Positions 23,420 through 64,000 of a stretch of 64,000 bases of DNA are shown in pieces (position 1 is the first letter of the stretch; every line of letters begins with the position of its first letter). This DNA is from Erysipelotrichaceae bacterium (lineage in GTDB: Bacteria; Bacillota_I; Bacilli_A; Erysipelotrichales; Erysipelotrichaceae). Under the pieces are notes generated by a model, which saw only the letters and a list, made by a program, of their open reading frames with translations, did not search any database and was not told the origin of the DNA. Location: positions 1 to 64,000 of the forward strand of contig JAUYTU010000013.1 in assembly GCA_030694975.1 (NCBI GenBank). The letters run 5' to 3'. The position numbers and the translations under genes are program-made.

Positions 23420-24805
23420 ATGCGATTTGAAGAACTATTGCCCATTCTTTTGCCTGCTGGATCTTTACAAATATTCGTACAAGGCTACTACATTTGGGAT
23501 TGTATACATCATCCGCGTCTTAGTAAATGGGCAAAACTTAAGTATGCACTGGGAATTGCGGCGTTCAGCTTACCAGTTGCGGCGTATTACCTTTTAAAAG
23601 AGCGCAACGAAGATATTGGTGAAGACATTTCCAAAGGAGTCTTTAAATCCAATGTCCGCCAGGCAATTTTTGTGTTAATCGTTATCGCATTTGAAATCCT
23701 ATCCATCACAACCGTAGCGAGCTATATCGGCACTGCTGAGTTTCAACCGTTAGTTTGGATTAGTGCGATTAGTATTACGGTGATGATTGCGACTGAATTA
23801 AGCATTCAGAGAAACAAATGGACAATTGCCTACACATTATCCATCTTGTTGAGTTTTCTGGGATTTGCACTTTTGTATATTGTCTTTGACATGAATACTC
23901 CATTTTTAATCATCATTTTATCAGCTTCAATCATAAATAATTATCCGCTGAAGCATGTAAGAAAATTCATCTATTTCATGATTTTCGGATTTGTAATGAT
24001 GGGAATAGTACGTCCGATGCTTGTTGAAAACGTATATGACCTCGATACTATTGTCAGTTCAGTTTATCTGAATACGGTGATTCTTGTTCTTGTTATACTT
24101 TCATTTTATATACTCAAACGACAGTACATCACAAATTACCAACTCGTAAGAACTCTGAATGTGGTGGAAAGTCAAAATGTGATGATTGAGGAGTTAAGTA
24201 AAACGGAAGAAAGAAATAAAATTGCACGAGAAATACATGACACAGTTGGGCATCGGTTAACAGGTGCTTTATACATGATTGAGGCCGCCAAGCTGAATGA
24301 TGATCGTTCGATTATAAATGAGAAGTTGGATACTGCTTATAATTTAATCAAAGATGCATTATCCGATATTCGACATTCAGTTAAACTGTTGGTTGAAGAT
24401 ACATCGGGAGTTTTCAGTGATAAAATAGAAACTCTTCGATTGGAATTAAATAAAAACACCGGATTGGAAATCGAAATAATCGTTGAAGCAACTCAACAAA
24501 TTCCTTCAATTCATCAAAGCCTGATATTTCGCGCGCTGATGGAATGTGTGACAAATACGATTAAACATTCTAAATCAACAAAAGCTGATATATTGATACA
24601 AGTAGCTAAAAGCAAACTCCTTTTTTCCTATAGTGATAATGGTGAAGGTTCAAAACCGTTTGATATGGGATTTGGGCTCACTTCAATGAAAGACTCTGTT
24701 GAAAGTCTGGGAGGATTATTTTCTGCTAACAATGGAAATGACGGGTTTATCGTAAACTTTACCTTACCCTTAGGCATTACGAATGAAGGTGACCTCAATG
24801 ATTAA
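23420..24805 (+). CDS. sensor histidine kinase, NarL/LiaS-type
   Basis: The 461-residue kinase has seven or eight N-terminal hydrophobic segments (about 10-235), a HisKA_3 dimerisation domain with the phosphorylated His in REIHDTVGHRLTGALY (about residue 273), and an HATPase_c domain with NTIKHSKSTKADI and SDNGEG. The first 60 residues resemble the PLDc_N-type membrane segment of the small protein at 25537. It phosphorylates the overlapping response regulator. AGGAGG site; a TATAAT at 23382-23387 is the likely -10. Confidence 0.93.
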   Translation: MRFEELLPILLPAGSLQIFVQGYYIWDCIHHPRLSKWAKLKYALGIAAFSLPVAAYYLLKERNEDIGEDISKGVFKSNVRQAIFVLIVIAFEILSITTVASYIGTAEFQPLVWISAISITVMIATELSIQRNKWTIAYTLSILLSFLGFALLYIVFDMNTPFLIIILSASIINNYPLKHVRKFIYFMIFGFVMMGIVRPMLVENVYDLDTIVSSVYLNTVILVLVILSFYILKRQYITNYQLVRTLNVVESQNVMIEELSKTEERNKIAREIHDTVGHRLTGALYMIEAAKLNDDRSIINEKLDTAYNLIKDALSDIRHSVKLLVEDTSGVFSDKIETLRLELNKNTGLEIEIIVEATQQIPSIHQSLIFRALMECVTNTIKHSKSTKADILIQVAKSKLLFSYSDNGEGSKPFDMGFGLTSMKDSVESLGGLFSANNGNDGFIVNFTLPLGITNEGDLND

Positions 24806-45176: not shown

Positions 45177-46331
45177 ATGGAAAAAATAGAGCGTATCGCG
45201 AAATATCTTGATGAAATTGCTAAGGGTCAACATACCATGGAACTTTATCGTGCGTATGAAGAAGATATTTTAAGTATTGAAGCAGAAGAATTGTTCACCT
45301 TGTTTTTTAATCGTTTGAACCAAGACGAAACGCCCGAACAAATATTGGTTTATCTGGATCGTCTGATGCATGTATTTGCTCAAGCTCTAAAAATTAAGGA
45401 TATCTCAGTTTTGCAGGATTCTTTTTTGGATCACATGATAAAAGAAAATTTCGAAATGGCCAAACGCATGGATTCTATCAAGAGTTACCTTGCCAAAGGT
45501 GATGTTGAGAAACATAAAGACGAATTGTTTGTTATGTTTGAGGAGTTGTTGAATTTCAATGTACACTACATCAAGAAAGAGAATATTCTATTCCCTTATC
45601 TGGAAAAAAAAGATCAGAAATTTACCGGGGTCTCGATCATGTGGACATTACATGATCAAATGCGCAGAACCCTAAAGAGCATATTGGCAGAGTTGAAAAA
45701 TGTTGATTTCAATCAGAAAGGCTTTATAATAGAAGTCGGTCGTTATTTTTTTCAGGTTTATGGATTGATACAAAAAGAAGAACTGATTTTGTATCCCGTA
45801 GCACGGAAAGTATTAACGCCATCCGAGCATGTCCAGATGCGCAAACAAAGTTTTGAACTCGGATTTGCATTCATTGAAACACCCATAGAAACTATGGGTG
45901 AAACTTCTGTTGAAACCAATGACTGGATTTACCGAAGTGAAACCGGAGAACTCACCTATGAGCAGTTAACATTGTTTGTTAACGCTTTGCCGGTTGATTG
46001 TACATTGATTGATGAACATAACAAAGTACGCTATTTCACCCGTCCGAAAGACCGAATTTTCCCGCGTTCACCGGCAATCATCGGCCGCGATGTGCGAAAC
46101 TGTCATCCGGCGGAAAGTGTGGATGTTGTCAATAAAATCATTGAAGCATTTCGAAAAAATGAGAGAGATGTTGCGACTTTCTGGATCGATATGCGTGGCA
46201 GAAAATTATTAATTCAATATTACGCCTTGCGAAATCCGCTCGGAGAGTATAAAGGAACGTTGGAAGTAAGTCAGGATATTACTGAAATTCAACAATTACA
46301 GGGTCAACGACGATTGTTGCAATGGGAATAA
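45177..46331 (+). CDS. hemerythrin-PAS protein, DUF438-related paralogue
   Basis: A 384-residue protein. Residues 75-215 form a hemerythrin-like bundle with H130/E135 (FNVHYIKKENILFPYLE) and H159 (LHDQMRRTL); in the last helix (GLIQKEELILYP) the usual His is absent. Residues 260-384 are a PAS domain (DCTLIDEHNKVRYFTRPKDR, GRDVRNCHPAESV, LEVSQDITEI). The NCHP motif is shared with the paralogue at 60238. It probably senses O2 or NO and acts with the adjacent permease gene, 12 bp downstream. Confidence 0.88.
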   Translation: MEKIERIAKYLDEIAKGQHTMELYRAYEEDILSIEAEELFTLFFNRLNQDETPEQILVYLDRLMHVFAQALKIKDISVLQDSFLDHMIKENFEMAKRMDSIKSYLAKGDVEKHKDELFVMFEELLNFNVHYIKKENILFPYLEKKDQKFTGVSIMWTLHDQMRRTLKSILAELKNVDFNQKGFIIEVGRYFFQVYGLIQKEELILYPVARKVLTPSEHVQMRKQSFELGFAFIETPIETMGETSVETNDWIYRSETGELTYEQLTLFVNALPVDCTLIDEHNKVRYFTRPKDRIFPRSPAIIGRDVRNCHPAESVDVVNKIIEAFRKNERDVATFWIDMRGRKLLIQYYALRNPLGEYKGTLEVSQDITEIQQLQGQRRLLQWE

Positions 46332-58350: not shown

Positions 58351-58380
58351 AACCCGTCGGCTAATTTTCCGTCGGGTTCT
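58351..58380. terminator. terminator between converging genes
   Basis: AACCCG-T-CGG and CCG-T-CGGGTT pair over CTAATTTT with one mismatch, followed by TTCTCC; on the minus strand the flank is TTTTTAATT. Confidence 0.65.
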
Positions 58381-59131
58381 CCATAATCTCTTTAAAGGTC
58401 GCCAAGGCATTGGCCATCGCCAAACCATCGGTAATTCGCTCATCTGCGACCACCGTAGCGCGTATCGTGTTTGTTTCCTCATTGAGTTTACCTAACACGC
58501 ATACCATGGATATGGTTCCCCAGTTATAAAGGTGATGATAGGGGGCATTGATTTTGATACTGCCAAGATTTGCAATCATGGCTGTGGCATGCAAGGGATC
58601 ATCCTCCGAAACAAACCTCGGCAACAGATTGTGATTATTTAGAAATCGTGCGAATCGCATGATCAAGCGCAGAAGAAAATGCGGTAAATGTCCAAGCAAT
58701 TCAAAAAATTTATCACTTGTCGCACCTTCATCCCGTTTTGCTTTGATCACGCTTGAAATTACCTGTTTGTTAAAGTCGGTAAATGACAATCCTTCCTTAA
58801 AAACCCATTTCACCACGATTGACCGACCATCTTCTGTCATTTTCTGCTTAACAACCGTCGAGAAAGCAATGTGATTGCGCTGATACAAGCGATTGTTCAT
58901 CACAAATCGATTGATAGCCGGATGCAGTGTCGTTGTTTTGTAAATCGCATACAAAAAGTAAGACAACATCATCGAATTATTTTTTTCAATGTAAGGAAGT
59001 ATGTGGGTTGCATCAATATCCATATACATATATACCGATGATCCGATTCGGTCGTCCAAAAAGTGAGCTTCAAGTTTTTGATAGGGATTCAACTTGATCT
59101 CATCCGCATCCCAACGTTTAAATATAGCCAT
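58361..59131 (-). CDS. E2/CAT-like acyltransferase with replaced catalytic His
   Basis: A 256-residue protein resembling the 2-oxo-acid dehydrogenase E2 catalytic (CAT-like) domain, without lipoyl or E1/E3-binding domains. The end reads TIRATVVADERITDGLAMAN, aligning with the E2 motif DHRxxDG; here the His is Glu. LHATAMIANLGSIKINAPYH and ISMVCVLGKL match the fold. Either a scaffold or a changed chemistry is implied. AAGGAGA site. It is divergent from the Crp/Fnr gene. Confidence 0.8.
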   Translation of the reverse strand: MAIFKRWDADEIKLNPYQKLEAHFLDDRIGSSVYMYMDIDATHILPYIEKNNSMMLSYFLYAIYKTTTLHPAINRFVMNNRLYQRNHIAFSTVVKQKMTEDGRSIVVKWVFKEGLSFTDFNKQVISSVIKAKRDEGATSDKFFELLGHLPHFLLRLIMRFARFLNNHNLLPRFVSEDDPLHATAMIANLGSIKINAPYHHLYNWGTISMVCVLGKLNEETNTIRATVVADERITDGLAMANALATFKEIMENPTEN

Positions 59132-59247: not shown

Positions 59248-59937
59248 ATGACTTGTCAAACTTGTTTACACAGCCATCCGTTAGGAACAACATGTATGCG
59301 ACGCGTACCGCTTTTTGCACCGCTTTCTGCACAGGAAATCAGCGAAGTTCAGCGACTGATTGTTCAAAGAGAGTATAAAAAAGGGGAATTTATCATTCAT
59401 CCGCTCAAAGTCATGCAATGTCTTTTTATCATCAACAAGGGAAAGGTCAAAGTAATCCGTCCCAACAAAGATGGCAAAGAACAGATTCTTTATGTGTTGA
59501 CGGTCGGAGAATTTTTTGGTGAGCAAGCCCTATTCAGTCGACTGTCGGAAGACATCATGGTTGAAGCATTGGAAGACAGCGGCATATGCACCATATCCAA
59601 AGCGCAGTTTCAAGCGCTGTTACAACAGATGCCGCAAATAGCTATTAAGATGATAGAAGTCATGTCCCATCGATTGACAAAAATGGAAGAGTTGGTGGAA
59701 AGTTTGGGAATCAATTCGGTTGATAAGCGCGTATTCAATCTTATTGAAGAATATTCAATAAAATTCGGTCGTAAAACACATGAAGGAATTTTGATTCAAC
59801 TGCCGCTGAGTCGTGAAGAAATGGCCAACCACTTGGGTATTACCCGTGAAACCATCAGTCGGAAACTTGCCAAATATCAGGATGAAGGGAAGATCAAGCT
59901 GATTGGGCATAAACAGATATTACTGATACATAAATAA
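59248..59937 (+). CDS. Crp/Fnr regulator with Cys cluster
   Basis: The 229-residue regulator has a cyclic-nucleotide-type sensor domain (about 20-130: GKVKVIRPNKDGKEQILYVL, GEFFGEQALFSR), a dimerisation helix and an HTH (LSREEMANHLGITRETISRK). The N terminus MTCQTCLHSHPLGTTCMR holds C3, C6 and C16, with C58 and C114 inside. E. coli Fnr uses three N-terminal and one internal Cys for an O2/NO-sensing 4Fe-4S cluster, so the same is likely here. Next to DUF1858/DUF438 genes it probably controls. Confidence 0.92.
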   Translation: MTCQTCLHSHPLGTTCMRRVPLFAPLSAQEISEVQRLIVQREYKKGEFIIHPLKVMQCLFIINKGKVKVIRPNKDGKEQILYVLTVGEFFGEQALFSRLSEDIMVEALEDSGICTISKAQFQALLQQMPQIAIKMIEVMSHRLTKMEELVESLGINSVDKRVFNLIEEYSIKFGRKTHEGILIQLPLSREEMANHLGITRETISRKLAKYQDEGKIKLIGHKQILLIHK

Positions 59938-59990: not shown

Positions 59991-60010
59991 GGACTCGCAG
60001 AGGAGATGCT

Positions 60011-60235
60011 ATGAAATCAATTGCCCTCGAAGACACGATTTATGAGATATACAGTCATTACCCCCAAGTCATGGATATTTTGTATGAATTTGGTTTTACT
60101 CAAATCAAACAACCGATGATGATACAGACGGTGGGACGATATATGACATTAAAGAAGGGCTGCGAGATGCGTGGCTTTGATTATGAAGAATTAGTACGTT
60201 TGTTGCGATCCAAAGGATTGCCCGTGGAGGAATGA
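60011..60235 (+). CDS. DUF1858-domain protein
   Basis: The 74-residue protein is the DUF1858 domain: LEDTIYEIYSHYPQVMDILYEFGF near the start, then VGRYMTLKKGCEMRGFDYEE with the conserved Cys, and a C-terminal helix. The domain occurs with hybrid-cluster or DUF438/hemerythrin (ScdA/YtfE-type) iron-sulfur repair and NO-related proteins. AGAGGAG site. It overlaps nothing but is 2 bp before the DUF438 ATG, so coupled. Confidence 0.9.
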   Translation: MKSIALEDTIYEIYSHYPQVMDILYEFGFTQIKQPMMIQTVGRYMTLKKGCEMRGFDYEELVRLLRSKGLPVEE

Positions 60236-60237
60236 AA

Positions 60238-61419
60238 ATGAGCGAAATCATCAATAACCGACAAGAAAAATTAAAAGAATTGATTTTAAAATTACACGAT
60301 GGAGCCAATCTGGAGGCAGTGAAAGCTGAATTTAAGGAACATTTTGGGACGGTCAGTACCGCTGAGATATCCGCGATAGAACGATCTTTGGTTGAAGAAG
60401 GAATGGCACCTGCCGAAATCCAACGCCTATGCGATGTGCACGCATCCTTATTCGAAGGTTCAATCGAACAAATTCATTCCACGGCCAAGCCCGAGCACAC
60501 GCCGGGACATCCGGTGTATACTTTCCGTTTGGAGAATATCAAAATTAAAAAACTTATTGAAAGAGAAATTCTGCCCTTACTCGAAGAAGAGTTTGATCGT
60601 TCAACCTTGTTTGCAATGATCGGCAGACTGCTGGAAATCGATAAGCATTATGCCCGCAAAGAAAACGTTGTCTTTCCTTATATGGAAAAACACGGGATTA
60701 CAGCACCTCCCAAAGTTATGTGGGGTGTGGATGATGAAATACGTAATGATTTAAAGAGTCTTTTAAGATTCTCACAAGCATGGTCGGTTGAAGAGTTGAT
60801 CAACAACACGAAGGCAGCTATCAAGAAAGTTATAGACATGATTTCTAAGGAAGAGAACATTCTATTTCCCATGATTATGGATACTTTCAGTGAAGCGGAG
60901 TGGGCAACTATTTTTGCTCAGTCGAAAGAGTTTGAGACTTCTTGGGTCGTTAATCCGCCTGCCTATCTTCCACAACTGGTCATCGAAGAAAAAGAGGATT
61001 TGGTAATACAATCCGGTTCTGTACCATTATCCGCAGGTTCGTTAACATTTGAGGAAACCAATGCGATATTCAATACGGTTCCATTTGATATGACTTTTGT
61101 CGGAGCTGATGATAAAGTAAAATTCTTTACTCAAGGGAAAGAAAGAGTCTTCTCGCGTCCGCTCTCCGTTATCGGTCGGGAAGTGAAGAACTGTCATCCT
61201 CCTCAAAGTGTTCATGTTGTCGAGAAGATTGTGGAAGATTTGCGTTCAGGCGTAAAAGACCACGAAGACTTCTGGATCAATTTCAAAGGAATGTTTGTTC
61301 ATATCCGTTATTATGCCGTTCGTAACGAAAAAGGCGAATACTTGGGAACCTTGGAAGTCACGCAAGATATTGAACCGATTCGGGCACTTGTTGGTGAAAA
61401 AAGACTGATGAATGAATGA
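60238..61419 (+). CDS. DUF438 protein: helical domain, hemerythrin, PAS
   Basis: A 393-residue protein with the DUF438 N-terminal domain (about 1-80, KELILKLHDGANLEAVKAEF and ISAIERSLVEEGMAPAEIQR), a hemerythrin-like bundle with H (YARKENVVFPYMEKH, ISKEENILFPM) and a PAS domain (FDMTFVGADDKVKFFTQGKE, GREVKNCHPPQSV). The last hemerythrin helix lacks the usual His. ATG at 60238 has GGAGG 7 nt upstream; ATG 60232 is too close. Predicted cytoplasmic O2/NO sensor or Fe-S stress protein. Confidence 0.88.
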   Translation: MSEIINNRQEKLKELILKLHDGANLEAVKAEFKEHFGTVSTAEISAIERSLVEEGMAPAEIQRLCDVHASLFEGSIEQIHSTAKPEHTPGHPVYTFRLENIKIKKLIEREILPLLEEEFDRSTLFAMIGRLLEIDKHYARKENVVFPYMEKHGITAPPKVMWGVDDEIRNDLKSLLRFSQAWSVEELINNTKAAIKKVIDMISKEENILFPMIMDTFSEAEWATIFAQSKEFETSWVVNPPAYLPQLVIEEKEDLVIQSGSVPLSAGSLTFEETNAIFNTVPFDMTFVGADDKVKFFTQGKERVFSRPLSVIGREVKNCHPPQSVHVVEKIVEDLRSGVKDHEDFWINFKGMFVHIRYYAVRNEKGEYLGTLEVTQDIEPIRALVGEKRLMNE

Positions 61420-61442
61420 AAAAAAGCCTCGCGGCTTTTTTA
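61418..61442. terminator. bidirectional terminator
   Basis: AAAAAGCC (61421-61428) and GGCTTTTT (61433-61440) over TCGC, with A and T flanks. It ends both the DUF438 gene and the minus-strand XRE gene. Confidence 0.85.
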
Positions 61443-63026
61443 AATGGATTCAAGCATTTTATACAACTCTTTGAGTACATCGGGGCGGCTTCTGCGCATG
61501 GTCGGGATATGGTTGATGACTTCTTCCATGTAATGATTCATTGAGGAAAGGATATTTCCCTCATGGACATAAAATCCTAACAAAGGTATCAATCCCTGTA
61601 CATTGGCAGTCAAGAAAGCTTCGGTATTTTCTTTAAGGTTAATATTAATGGTGATTTCATTTTCCGAATGGTGATAGTTGCCAAAGAACAGCTGGAATTT
61701 TTCGTTGTTTTCGATTACAAATATCATATTTTCGATGATGGCTTTAATTTCAAGACGGGTACAGATGATTTCATCTCTTAAAAAGAATACGGGATCAAAG
61801 TGCACATAGGCACCGCGGGTTATTGAATCTTTGAGTACTTGCAACGGGAATATGTCTGTATAAGGCGCAATCGAAAGCGAATTGAGCATTCGAGTACGCA
61901 ACTGCCGAACTTTGTCGATGTAGTTTTTCTGCGCAGTCGGAGGTAAGGTTTTACTGTAACGCGTGTAGACATCGTCGGGTAGGAAAATAGAATTGACATG
62001 CAAATGCCAACTGGTCGTCGGTGATACGACTGCGATATTTTGGATCATTCGATCCAACAGTTCAAACTGCTGAGTTTTCTTAAATATTTCAAACAACGGT
62101 TTACATCCGGTCAATCGTCCCATAAATTGCGATTGAAACGACTGTGCTACCTCAGGAAGTTCGTATAAGTAAGACAGATTCTCAACATCTTCAAATGTTA
62201 CGGATGATGAAACCAGTGCCCGCATATCCTTTTGAACAAACCAAGAGGTTTTCACGATTTGTGATTGGTACCGAGGATTATAATACGACTTGATGGATCC
62301 TAACAGATGCAAAGGCATCCACAAATTGATTGCCTGCAGGATATCGTGCGTGTCCCGATGCACCGTATGGATAATACTGATCTTGTGCCCGGCTTCAATA
62401 ATCCCGCGCAACAACACATGCCATTGCACCTGAAATACCCGGTCTTCTGTCAGCCAACTCATATCTTCATCGCTCAACAAAAACAATTCAGTTTTCTCTT
62501 CACTTCGCAAAACGGAAGTTAAAAGATAGATAACGGCTTTTCGTTTTGCGGAATTACCGGCAAATAAATGAAAATCCTTTTTGTATTGAGTCGTTAAGGT
62601 CGGTAATGGGAAATCGAGAGAAGGCATCGCAGCTTGGGCTGGCCGATCTTTAGCCAGTCCCTGAATCTGCTGCAAAAGAACTTCCGCGTACTCTTCACTT
62701 GAAACAAACGGTCGAATCACGGTCGACGAAGCTGTGTCGCGAATCAGCCAGTCAGAAAGCAAGGCAACCTGATCGCTGATATTGGGTAATTCAGCTTTTT
62801 GCTCTTCTAAGATATGACGCAAATACTCCTGCTGATAGGAGTAACCGTTTTGAGACAAAAAATAATCCGCGATCGAAGGAATGTGTGAAGAACGCATGGT
62901 TGGAACACGATCCCCGTTACGCCAACGACTGACTAAAGAAGGATCGATGTTGATTTCCTTAGCCAGTTTGCTGTTTGAAATATGGAACTGCTCCATCAGT
63001 TGATTGAGTTTATCTTTGAATTGCAT
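61440..63026 (-). CDS. XRE-family regulator with large unknown C-terminal region
   Basis: A 528-residue protein with an N-terminal XRE helix-turn-helix (about 1-65: LNQLMEQFHISNSKLAKEIN, DPSLVSRWRNGDRVP). The remaining 460 residues match no family I know, with an unusual run VIYLLTSVLRSEEKTELFLL and no TPR pattern. No membrane segment. Start has AGAGGTAAAG upstream. The promoter (-35 TTGACA, 18 bp, CATAAT) is embedded in TGACA half-sites, implying autoregulation. Confidence 0.85.
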   Translation of the reverse strand: MQFKDKLNQLMEQFHISNSKLAKEINIDPSLVSRWRNGDRVPTMRSSHIPSIADYFLSQNGYSYQQEYLRHILEEQKAELPNISDQVALLSDWLIRDTASSTVIRPFVSSEEYAEVLLQQIQGLAKDRPAQAAMPSLDFPLPTLTTQYKKDFHLFAGNSAKRKAVIYLLTSVLRSEEKTELFLLSDEDMSWLTEDRVFQVQWHVLLRGIIEAGHKISIIHTVHRDTHDILQAINLWMPLHLLGSIKSYYNPRYQSQIVKTSWFVQKDMRALVSSSVTFEDVENLSYLYELPEVAQSFQSQFMGRLTGCKPLFEIFKKTQQFELLDRMIQNIAVVSPTTSWHLHVNSIFLPDDVYTRYSKTLPPTAQKNYIDKVRQLRTRMLNSLSIAPYTDIFPLQVLKDSITRGAYVHFDPVFFLRDEIICTRLEIKAIIENMIFVIENNEKFQLFFGNYHHSENEITININLKENTEAFLTANVQGLIPLLGFYVHEGNILSSMNHYMEEVINHIPTMRRSRPDVLKELYKMLESI

Positions 63027-63046
63027 GAGCTTTACCTCTTTATCAC

Positions 63047-63096
63047 ATTATGACAGAAATTGACAAAAAATGTCAATGACAAATTGTGTCATGACA
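63047..63096 (-). promoter_or_regulatory. XRE promoter with TGACA/TGTCA half-site array
   Basis: Minus-strand -35 TTGACA (63076-63071) and -10 CATAAT (63052-63047). TGACA occurs at 63051, 63061, 63077 and 63092 and TGTCA at 63071 and 63087. Two TGACA-N5-TGTCA palindromes (63061-63075, 63077-63091) are 16 bp apart. The array extends up to the divergent short transcription unit. Confidence 0.7.
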
Positions 63097-63119
63097 TTCC
63101 TTTTGTAACACTAAATGTG

Positions 63120-63209
63120 TATTATATTGGTGACTGGGTGGGGGATTGATGTATAAACAATGCGTGTGTGGGCACCGGTCATGAAGATTCCTTGATGGAA
63201 TCTTTTTTA
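63120..63209 (+). ncRNA. candidate short transcript with micro-ORF, divergent from XRE
   Basis: A TATTAT/TATATT -10 region at 63120-63128 precedes a G-rich stretch. An 11-codon frame MYKQCVCGHRS (63149-63184) has GTGGGGG before it, and its stop sits on the terminator stem. GAC-TG-GGTG and CACC-G-GTC can pair around the frame. Could encode a peptide or be a structured small RNA; neither is proven. Confidence 0.3.
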
Positions 63210-63210
63210 T
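63184..63210 (+). terminator. intrinsic terminator of the short unit
   Basis: AAGATTCC (63184-63191) and GGAATCTT (63197-63204) over TTGAT, followed by TTTTATTT. Confidence 0.8.
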
Positions 63211-63337
63211 TTCATCACAGATTTCTATTCTTCATCTTACTTCTCTATCTGCAAAATCTCTCATTGACGCAAACGCAGTTGTTAATGAAGATGAATAACA
63301 CAGATTATGTTAAAATACTTAAAAGGAGACTATGATC

Positions 63338-63709
63338 ATGAAATTCAAATTCGCTCATTTTAATTTTAATGTGCTCGACCTGCAGAAAAGTATACAGTTT
63401 TATCAGGATGCTTTAGGTTTAACCGTAAGAAGAAGCAAGGAAGCTGCCGATGGCAGTTATATCATCACTTTTTTAGAAGACCGCGAATCAGATTTTTATC
63501 TGGAACTTACCTGGCTTAAAGATCATACGGAACCCTATGATCTGGGTGAACAAGAGTATCATCTAGCATTTATTACGGACCAGTATGATGCAGCACATAC
63601 CCACCATCAGGAAATGGGTGTCATATGTTATGAGAACCCGGTGATGGGAATATACTTCATACTTGATCCGGATGGCTATTGGATCGAAATCGTACCCGCA
63701 AAACGTTAA
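63338..63709 (+). CDS. glyoxalase I-like VOC protein
   Basis: The 123-residue protein has two betaalphabetabetabeta modules. The four metal ligands of glyoxalase I can be placed: H in FAHFNFNV, E in YLELTW, H in YHLAFIT and E in YWIEIVPA. It probably isomerises methylglyoxal hemithioacetal or acts on a related thiol adduct. AAAAGGAG lies 10 nt upstream of ATG 63338; an ATG at 63332 is 4 nt from the site. Confidence 0.88.
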   Translation: MKFKFAHFNFNVLDLQKSIQFYQDALGLTVRRSKEAADGSYIITFLEDRESDFYLELTWLKDHTEPYDLGEQEYHLAFITDQYDAAHTHHQEMGVICYENPVMGIYFILDPDGYWIEIVPAKR

Positions 63710-63735
63710 GAAGGATCTTCAGATTCTTCTTTTTT
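63708..63735 (+). terminator. intrinsic terminator after the VOC gene
   Basis: AAGAAG-G-ATC and GAT-T-CTTCTT pair over TTCA with one mismatch, followed by a run of T. Confidence 0.75.
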
Positions 63736-63767
63736 TCTTTACATTATCATCTTTTGAAAGTATACTA

Positions 63768-63789
63768 CATATGAACAACTGTTCATATG
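63768..63789. promoter_or_regulatory. ArsR/SmtB-type operator, perfect 10-2-10 palindrome
   Basis: CATATGAACA-AC-TGTTCATATG is a perfect inverted repeat ending 8 bp before the ArsR ATG. It matches the 12-2-12-type operator of SmtB/CadC/ArsR repressors, so autorepression is expected. Confidence 0.85.
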
Positions 63790-63797
63790 AGGTATTT

Positions 63798-64000
63798 ATG
63801 AAAGCAGATGTATGCAAAGAGTTTTTTACTCATCCCCAAGTTATCGAAGCCGCGAAAAGCGACTTGCTTTCTGATGAAGAATACGACTACATGTCGATGT
63901 TTTTCAAGATGGTTTCTGACCCCACGCGCTTAAAAATCATCAATGTACTATTTGACAGAGAGTTGTGTGTTTGCGACTTGATGATCGTTACAGAAATGTC
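63798..64000 (+). CDS. ArsR/SmtB metal-sensing repressor, 3' end outside window
   Basis: The 67 visible residues start MKADVCKEFFTHPQVIEAAK and continue with MFFKMVSDPTRLKIINVLF, DRELCVCDLM. The ELCVCDL motif carries the paired Cys of the CadC/ArsR alpha-3N metal site; C6 is a further ligand candidate. This is the winged-helix repressor that releases its operator on binding Cd, Pb, Zn or As. The regulated export gene is expected downstream, out of view. Confidence 0.93.
   Translation, partial: MKADVCKEFFTHPQVIEAAKSDLLSDEEYDYMSMFFKMVSDPTRLKIINVLFDRELCVCDLMIVTEM

Follow-up and report, generated by a model that had tools for sequence, protein, structure and literature searches.

Architecture of the locus

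The window analyzed here, bases 1-64000 (64,000 nt) of contig 18 of a 42-contig, 2.19 Mb Erysipelotrichaceae assembly (genome G000), contains an array of TGACA/TGTCA half-sites that separates the gene of a 528-residue XRE regulator from a short terminated unit, an architecture that had been proposed from the letters of this stretch and that our analysis confirmed. The next gene 3' of the unit, 120 nt on and in the same direction, encodes a glyoxalase. Comparisons drew on a family sample of 273 genomes, among which seven, G000 included, make up its genus (g1); the closest relatives of G000 are metagenome assemblies labelled Erysipelotrichaceae or Firmicutes (HGW) bacterium. The XRE gene is present in five other g1 genomes, and nine orthologous loci were compared across two genera, g1 and g59, between which the XRE orthologues share about 25-27% protein identity. 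The features of the locus are:

61440-63026, minus strand: XRE regulator of 528 residues, with a Cro/C1 HTH at about residues 6-56 and a predicted tandem pseudo-phospholipase D (pseudo-PLD) region at about residues 146-312 and 317-528 (ORF, HTH_26, AlphaFold)
63047-63076, minus strand: XRE promoter inside the operator, -35 TTGACA (63076-63071) and -10 CATAAT (63052-63047) (promoter scan)
63051-63096: operator of six TGACA/TGTCA half-sites (sequence, comparison, simulation)
63120-63125, plus strand: putative -10 TATTAT of the divergent RNA promoter (sequence, four-genome alignment)
63129-63210, plus strand: predicted non-coding small RNA (sRNA) of about 80 nt, start inferred near 63131 (covariance model, fold)
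63131-63181, plus strand: 5' domain of the predicted sRNA, closing stem 63131-63137 with 63175-63181 (fold, alignment)
63149-63184, plus strand: micro-ORF MYKQCVCGHRS, judged not to be a gene (start, frame and stop not kept)
63183-63210, plus strand: intrinsic terminator, stem 63183-63205 and a U-run (terminator prediction, alignment)

A nested half-site array overlies the XRE promoter

The six half-sites lie at 63051(+), 63061(+), 63071(-), 63077(+), 63087(-) and 63092(+) and include, as first described, two TGACA-N5-TGTCA palindromes (63061-63075 and 63077-63091) spaced 16 bp apart. Such a density, six half-sites within 46 bp, greatly exceeds chance expectation: when the window was simulated 200 times with a first-order Markov model, the most crowded 46 bp held two to four half-sites and never six. 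The natural core of this operator is TGTCA-A-TGACA (63071-63081), with more half-sites on both flanks. The XRE promoter was correctly placed beneath the array, with both of its boxes inside it; it matches the consensus at 11 of 12 positions with an extended -10, and the central TGTCA-A of the array forms its -35.

Conservation divides the array into two parts. The first four half-sites (63051, 63061, 63071 and 63077), which are those over the XRE gene's own promoter, keep a fixed spacing (0, 10, 20, 26) in all nine orthologous loci of the two genera. The fifth and sixth (offsets 36 and 41) are present in all four g1 genomes that have the RNA, and the fifth (63087) is displaced by 2 bp in G264 and G267 of g59. 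Two g1 genomes have the regulator and no RNA: in G257 the sixth half-site is gone and a remnant of the terminator is all that is left of the RNA, and G260 lacks both the fifth and the sixth, so that the sixth (63092) is missing from both genomes. In this small sample the losses fit a division in which the inner sites would serve autoregulation and the outer sites the RNA promoter.

Of the 273 family genomes, 17 contain the 21-bp pattern TGACA-N5-TGTCA-N-TGACA, and in ten of these (six g1, three g59 and G173) it lies upstream of a gene that belongs to the same XRE family; the remaining matches are one site each in three genomes of a further genus, g8, and single sites elsewhere, three inside ORFs. 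The pattern occurs once in G000, where the exact sequence TGTCANTGACA has eight other sites, all inside ORFs, and the exact operator revealed no further regulon. The three g8 sites (G029, G031 and G052) lie between an RpiR-like regulator and a lipoprotein gene, an intergenic position that a related XRE protein may use as a second target. Separately, two identical palindromes, TGACATCATTTGTCA, stand 423 bp apart outside ORFs (G000:C4:23112-23126 and 23535-23549), flanking a 95-residue ORF, and are perhaps the operator of another regulator.

The regulator carries a predicted pseudo-PLD region

Pfam and NCBIfam recognized the N-terminal HTH alone in the 528-residue protein (HTH_26, 1.2e-5), and no solved structure is related to it by sequence. 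At the level of sequence, the original prediction that the large C-terminal region matches no family therefore stands, but the predicted structure gives it a pseudo-phospholipase-D fold like that of TrmB. The AlphaFold model (pLDDT 71.7), in which strands and helices alternate as in PLD folds, places at residues 146-312 an alpha/beta domain that, among solved structures, is matched best by the effector domains of TrmBL2 and TrmB and by proteins of the PLD family (Foldseek E down to 2.6e-7); VIA gave Z 14.5 against TrmBL2 (2.6 Å over 137 residues) and Z 12.7 against TrmB. Residues 317-528, folded alone, again matched PLD-family proteins, more weakly (best Z 8.6), both models being of moderate confidence (pLDDT 72 and 77). 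The HxK(x)4D motif that marks phospholipase D enzymes is absent from the window protein and from nine orthologues. The C-terminal region is most likely a non-catalytic tandem PLD-like domain resembling the effector-binding domain of TrmB.

In TrmB the PLD-like domain binds sugars, and autoregulation is known for several of the archaeal TrmB and TrmBL2 regulators (PF01978 with PF11495) (PMC4158304). The protein described here would share with them a DNA-binding domain followed by a PLD-like domain that lacks the HKD motif, and differs in carrying a Cro/C1 HTH in place of the winged helix, in its two predicted PLD-like repeats and in its bacterial host. By sequence it matches neither PF01978 nor PF11495, and a Pfam search up to E 1 found no match to the TrmB effector domain PF11495 in the window protein or 15 homologues. 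No papers on XRE proteins with PLD domains were found in the literature searched, and as far as that literature shows the combination is undescribed. A viral, phage or plasmid origin was rejected: viral contigs and phages held no relative of the protein, and the only plasmid relatives are on Lachnospira eligens megaplasmids, at 22% identity.

The divergent unit is kept as a predicted structured RNA

The short unit had been described as a -10 region, an 11-codon frame whose stop sits on the terminator stem and a strong terminator. A -10-like TATTAT and the terminator are in place, but a good -35 is not: the divergent promoter has no recognizable -35 and is absent from the list of a simple promoter scan. 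Its -10 reads GTGTATTAT, GTGTAATAT, GTGTAATAT and GTGTATGAT in the four-genome alignment, and the half-site ending at 63096 adjoins the expected -35 position. The predicted fold of the unit (-24.9 kcal/mol, z -3.0) is a closing stem that encloses a conserved GGGGGAU (63140-63146), a UGUGGG (63167-63172) and a variable A/U-rich part, followed by the terminator.

A covariance model of the unit, R1, matches G000 and its congeners G258, G259 and G261 with E-values of 7e-18 to 4e-13; those of the three relatives (3e-17 to 4e-13) show similarity, R1 having been built partly from their sequences. The RNA is present in four of the seven g1 genomes, only beside this operator, and, more informative than the E-values, the R1 search found no second copy of similar quality among the 273 family genomes. 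Beyond the genus R1 gave only weak matches (E 0.0016 and above), which were treated as chance because at the six loci examined they rested mainly on terminator hairpins and weak stems. Across the four sequences the closing stem (TGACYGG with CCGGTCA), the GGGGGAU, the UGUGGG and the terminator are conserved, and 98% of the stem and terminator pair cells are intact, with one two-sided change. Covariation among these four close sequences is weak, being matched by 138 of 500 shuffles, and the pair conservation is consistent with the structure and, with four sequences, is not proof of it.

The 11-codon frame was found where it had been described, its stop overlapping the terminator stem, which starts at 63183. 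Among the relatives, G258 and G259 have ATT in place of its ATG and G261 has no counterpart of that codon; G259 also carries a frameshift, and G258 has lost the stop. The search among homologues for a divergent micro-ORF or RNA structure thus recovered the RNA structure, in four of the seven g1 genomes, and not the micro-ORF, and of the two links first suggested, to a peptide or to an RNA, it is the RNA that the conservation supports. That MYKQCVCGHRS is a signalling or effector peptide tied to the XRE protein in the manner of RRNPP systems is accordingly highly improbable, and a peptide gene was rejected on the comparison of frames among relatives. Its ATG does lie 4 nt after GGGGG in the window, and the window and G258 share a short alternative frame, MRV(L)WAPV(M/T)KIP; the peptide has no secretion signal or hydrophobic stretch. 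The likeness to the RRNPP regulators (Rap, Rgg, NprR, PlcR, PrgX and AimR) consists of the XRE-type HTH, the large C-terminal domain and the nearby micro-ORF, with the AimR model giving a weak, HTH-only match (E 0.003) below the cut-off. The difference lies in the C-terminal domain, which is predicted to be PLD-like rather than TPR, so that the TPR domain was rightly said to be missing as far as the model goes, and in the pro-peptide: those systems have an adjacent, conserved, secreted one, whereas the micro-ORF here is not conserved among relatives. On comparative grounds the small gene is non-coding, kept as RNA and, by prediction, intrinsically terminated, and the unit is probably a structured regulatory RNA of about 80 nt rather than a gene for a tiny protein.

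Genes downstream of the unit bear on whether it could instead be a 5' leader whose terminator controls the next gene, perhaps a riboswitch that binds a ligand. The order of a structured 5' domain and then a terminator recalls a riboswitch, and a gene does follow in the same direction both in the window (the glyoxalase gene) and in g59, where it encodes a DnaQ-like exonuclease. In G258, however, the next gene after the RNA is mscL on the opposite strand, which makes an attenuator unlikely in g1, and in G261 and G257, too, the sequence that follows reads as mscL in that orientation. No anti-terminator pairing is visible in the fold, and Rfam gave no match up to E 1 in 60000-64000, so we regard the leader as quite unlikely. 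In G258, mscL stands between the RNA and the glyoxalase gene and is missing from the window (63211-63331); an indel therefore borders the RNA terminator.

Other genera place different partners opposite the regulator

Three g59 genomes (G264, G266 and G267) carry a different, terminated, G-rich unit at the same place, with no ORF shared among the three, a further point against the peptide. At the equivalent position in G264 and G267, a promoter-like GTGACA-N17-TAAAAT accompanies a unit of about 76 nt. Over about 80 nt the three units share 86-93% identity, and the G266 XRE protein is 65-66% identical to the other g59 proteins; by these comparisons the RNA core is more strongly conserved than the XRE protein. 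In G266 the operator has been split by an insertion sequence: both contigs run into the same repeat beside operator half-sites, and the RNA counterpart lies on one contig (G266:C62:12472-12548) and the XRE gene on another (G266:C54), a natural disruption of the XRE-RNA pair. This split case apart, the unit occurred only at this operator. An AUGGGG-type strand and a G-rich 3' strand are present in the g1 as well as the g59 RNAs, whose likeness is limited to these G-rich strands; the alignment was unconvincing and homology was not accepted, common descent being possible.

These comparisons also bear on whether the divergent transcription merely tunes the XRE promoter, the RNA being a short terminated by-product with no function in trans. 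The divergent promoter shares the operator, its transcripts are predicted from the sequence to end quickly, and G257 keeps the terminator and not the RNA body, all of which this account would accommodate. Against it stand the conservation, beyond promoter and terminator, of the GGGGGAU, the UGUGGG and the closing stem of the RNA body and the higher conservation of the g59 RNA core relative to the protein, and we judge it unlikely.

The XRE/pseudo-PLD homologues in g8, like those in Lachnospira eligens, are related full-length proteins. The g8 proteins differ in having two HTH domains in tandem, and many keep a GTCAWTGAC core upstream of their genes; instead of an RNA, a gene for a zinc-ribbon, membrane or surface protein stands opposite them. 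The regulator is therefore older and more widespread than the RNA. The GTCAWTGAC core in g8 is often flanked by GTGCCA/TGGCAC arms.

A model of a ligand-responsive regulator-RNA pair

We favor, at somewhat better than an even chance, a local pair in which a ligand-responsive, autoregulated XRE/pseudo-PLD regulator controls a divergent sRNA. Dimers of the XRE protein would bind the TGACA/TGTCA array; at the inner half-sites, over its own -35 and -10, the protein would repress itself, and at the outer half-sites, next to the -35-less promoter, it would control, and most likely activate, the divergent promoter. Activation is our guess because that promoter has no -35 and a half-site ends at 63096 there, as in promoters that need an activator. 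The RNA so produced would be terminated, structured and about 80 nt long, with exposed G-rich strands. The protein may be switched by a small molecule, perhaps a sugar or a phosphate compound, bound to the dead PLD-like domain. We propose that the RNA is the regulator's main output in trans, since the exact operator is found nowhere else in the genome, and that it acts without Hfq or CsrA, its G-rich strands pairing with C-rich stretches of mRNA or capturing another RNA or a protein.

Several observations count against the pair. XRE homologues lacking the divergent unit had been named in advance as evidence against it, and G257 and G260 have the regulator and the core operator with no unit, so the pairing is common but not universal. 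Together with the protein genes opposite the regulator in g8, this indicates that the output need not be RNA, and the divergent promoter is weak by consensus.

Neither Hfq nor CsrA was detected in the five g1 genomes tested, three of which are 62-79% complete, and an RNA acting as a CsrA-binding decoy was rejected on the absence of CsrA from these genomes. With the antisense of the G-rich strand as query, 15 off-locus sites were found with two to three mismatches; the ten viewed held nothing recognizable as a translation start, and there was no convincing target. That no target mRNA stands out, and that the G-rich strands resemble ribosome-binding sites, would suit a sponge or decoy whose partner is not an mRNA but a C-rich sRNA or an RNA-binding protein, yet there is no known candidate for that partner, CsrA being undetected in the g1 genomes tested, and we consider capture of this kind as the RNA's role very unlikely.

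The regulator-RNA pair as we picture it has precedents of layout in SgrR-SgrS, OxyR-OxyS and GcvA-GcvB, enterobacterial sRNAs that are divergently transcribed beside their own regulators (PMC4423775). As in those systems, the regulator gene and a short, intrinsically terminated RNA gene diverge from one shared intergenic control region, here the operator; the DNA-binding proteins there respond to a ligand or to stress, as the XRE protein would. The regulator types differ (XRE/pseudo-PLD against SgrR or LysR types), the RNA is unrelated, the enteric pairs use Hfq, which was not detected in the tested g1 genomes, and the pair described here is a prediction from sequence; the locus is not a member of these families. 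SgrR itself has an N-terminal DNA-binding part and a large C-terminal ligand domain, a layout to which that of the XRE regulator is similar.

The pair may be new, and the RNA a new family. A broader reading, which we hold tentatively and at clearly less than an even chance, is that the XRE protein with its dead tandem PLD region represents a new sensor class whose only strong operator drives a dedicated sRNA, the slot opposite being filled in two genera by different G-rich sRNAs and elsewhere by protein genes, so that regulator and output RNA would evolve as interchangeable parts. This layout of regulator and sRNA is familiar mainly from enteric bacteria that use Hfq, and a pair in Erysipelotrichaceae genomes in which neither Hfq nor CsrA was detected would carry it to a group where small RNAs have hardly been studied. 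It would also supply XRE regulators that bear no annotation beyond hypothetical or XRE with a sensor domain, the pseudo-PLD region, and the nested half-site code, with its loss along with the RNA, offers a directly testable promoter logic.

Other genes in the window

Three further observations were made by eye. The product of 58361-59131 looks like a protein of the chloramphenicol acetyltransferase fold with ERITDG apparently in place of the usual HHxxxDG, and is probably not an acetyltransferase of that type. The products of 45177-46331 and 60232-61419 form a paralogous pair resembling hemerythrin/DUF438-type proteins with a PAS domain. The second of these genes lies behind one for a Crp/Fnr-type regulator (59248-59937) and one for a short protein that resembles DUF1858 (60011-60235), and the Crp/Fnr-type, DUF1858-like and hemerythrin-like genes together suggest a nitric-oxide or redox response cluster.
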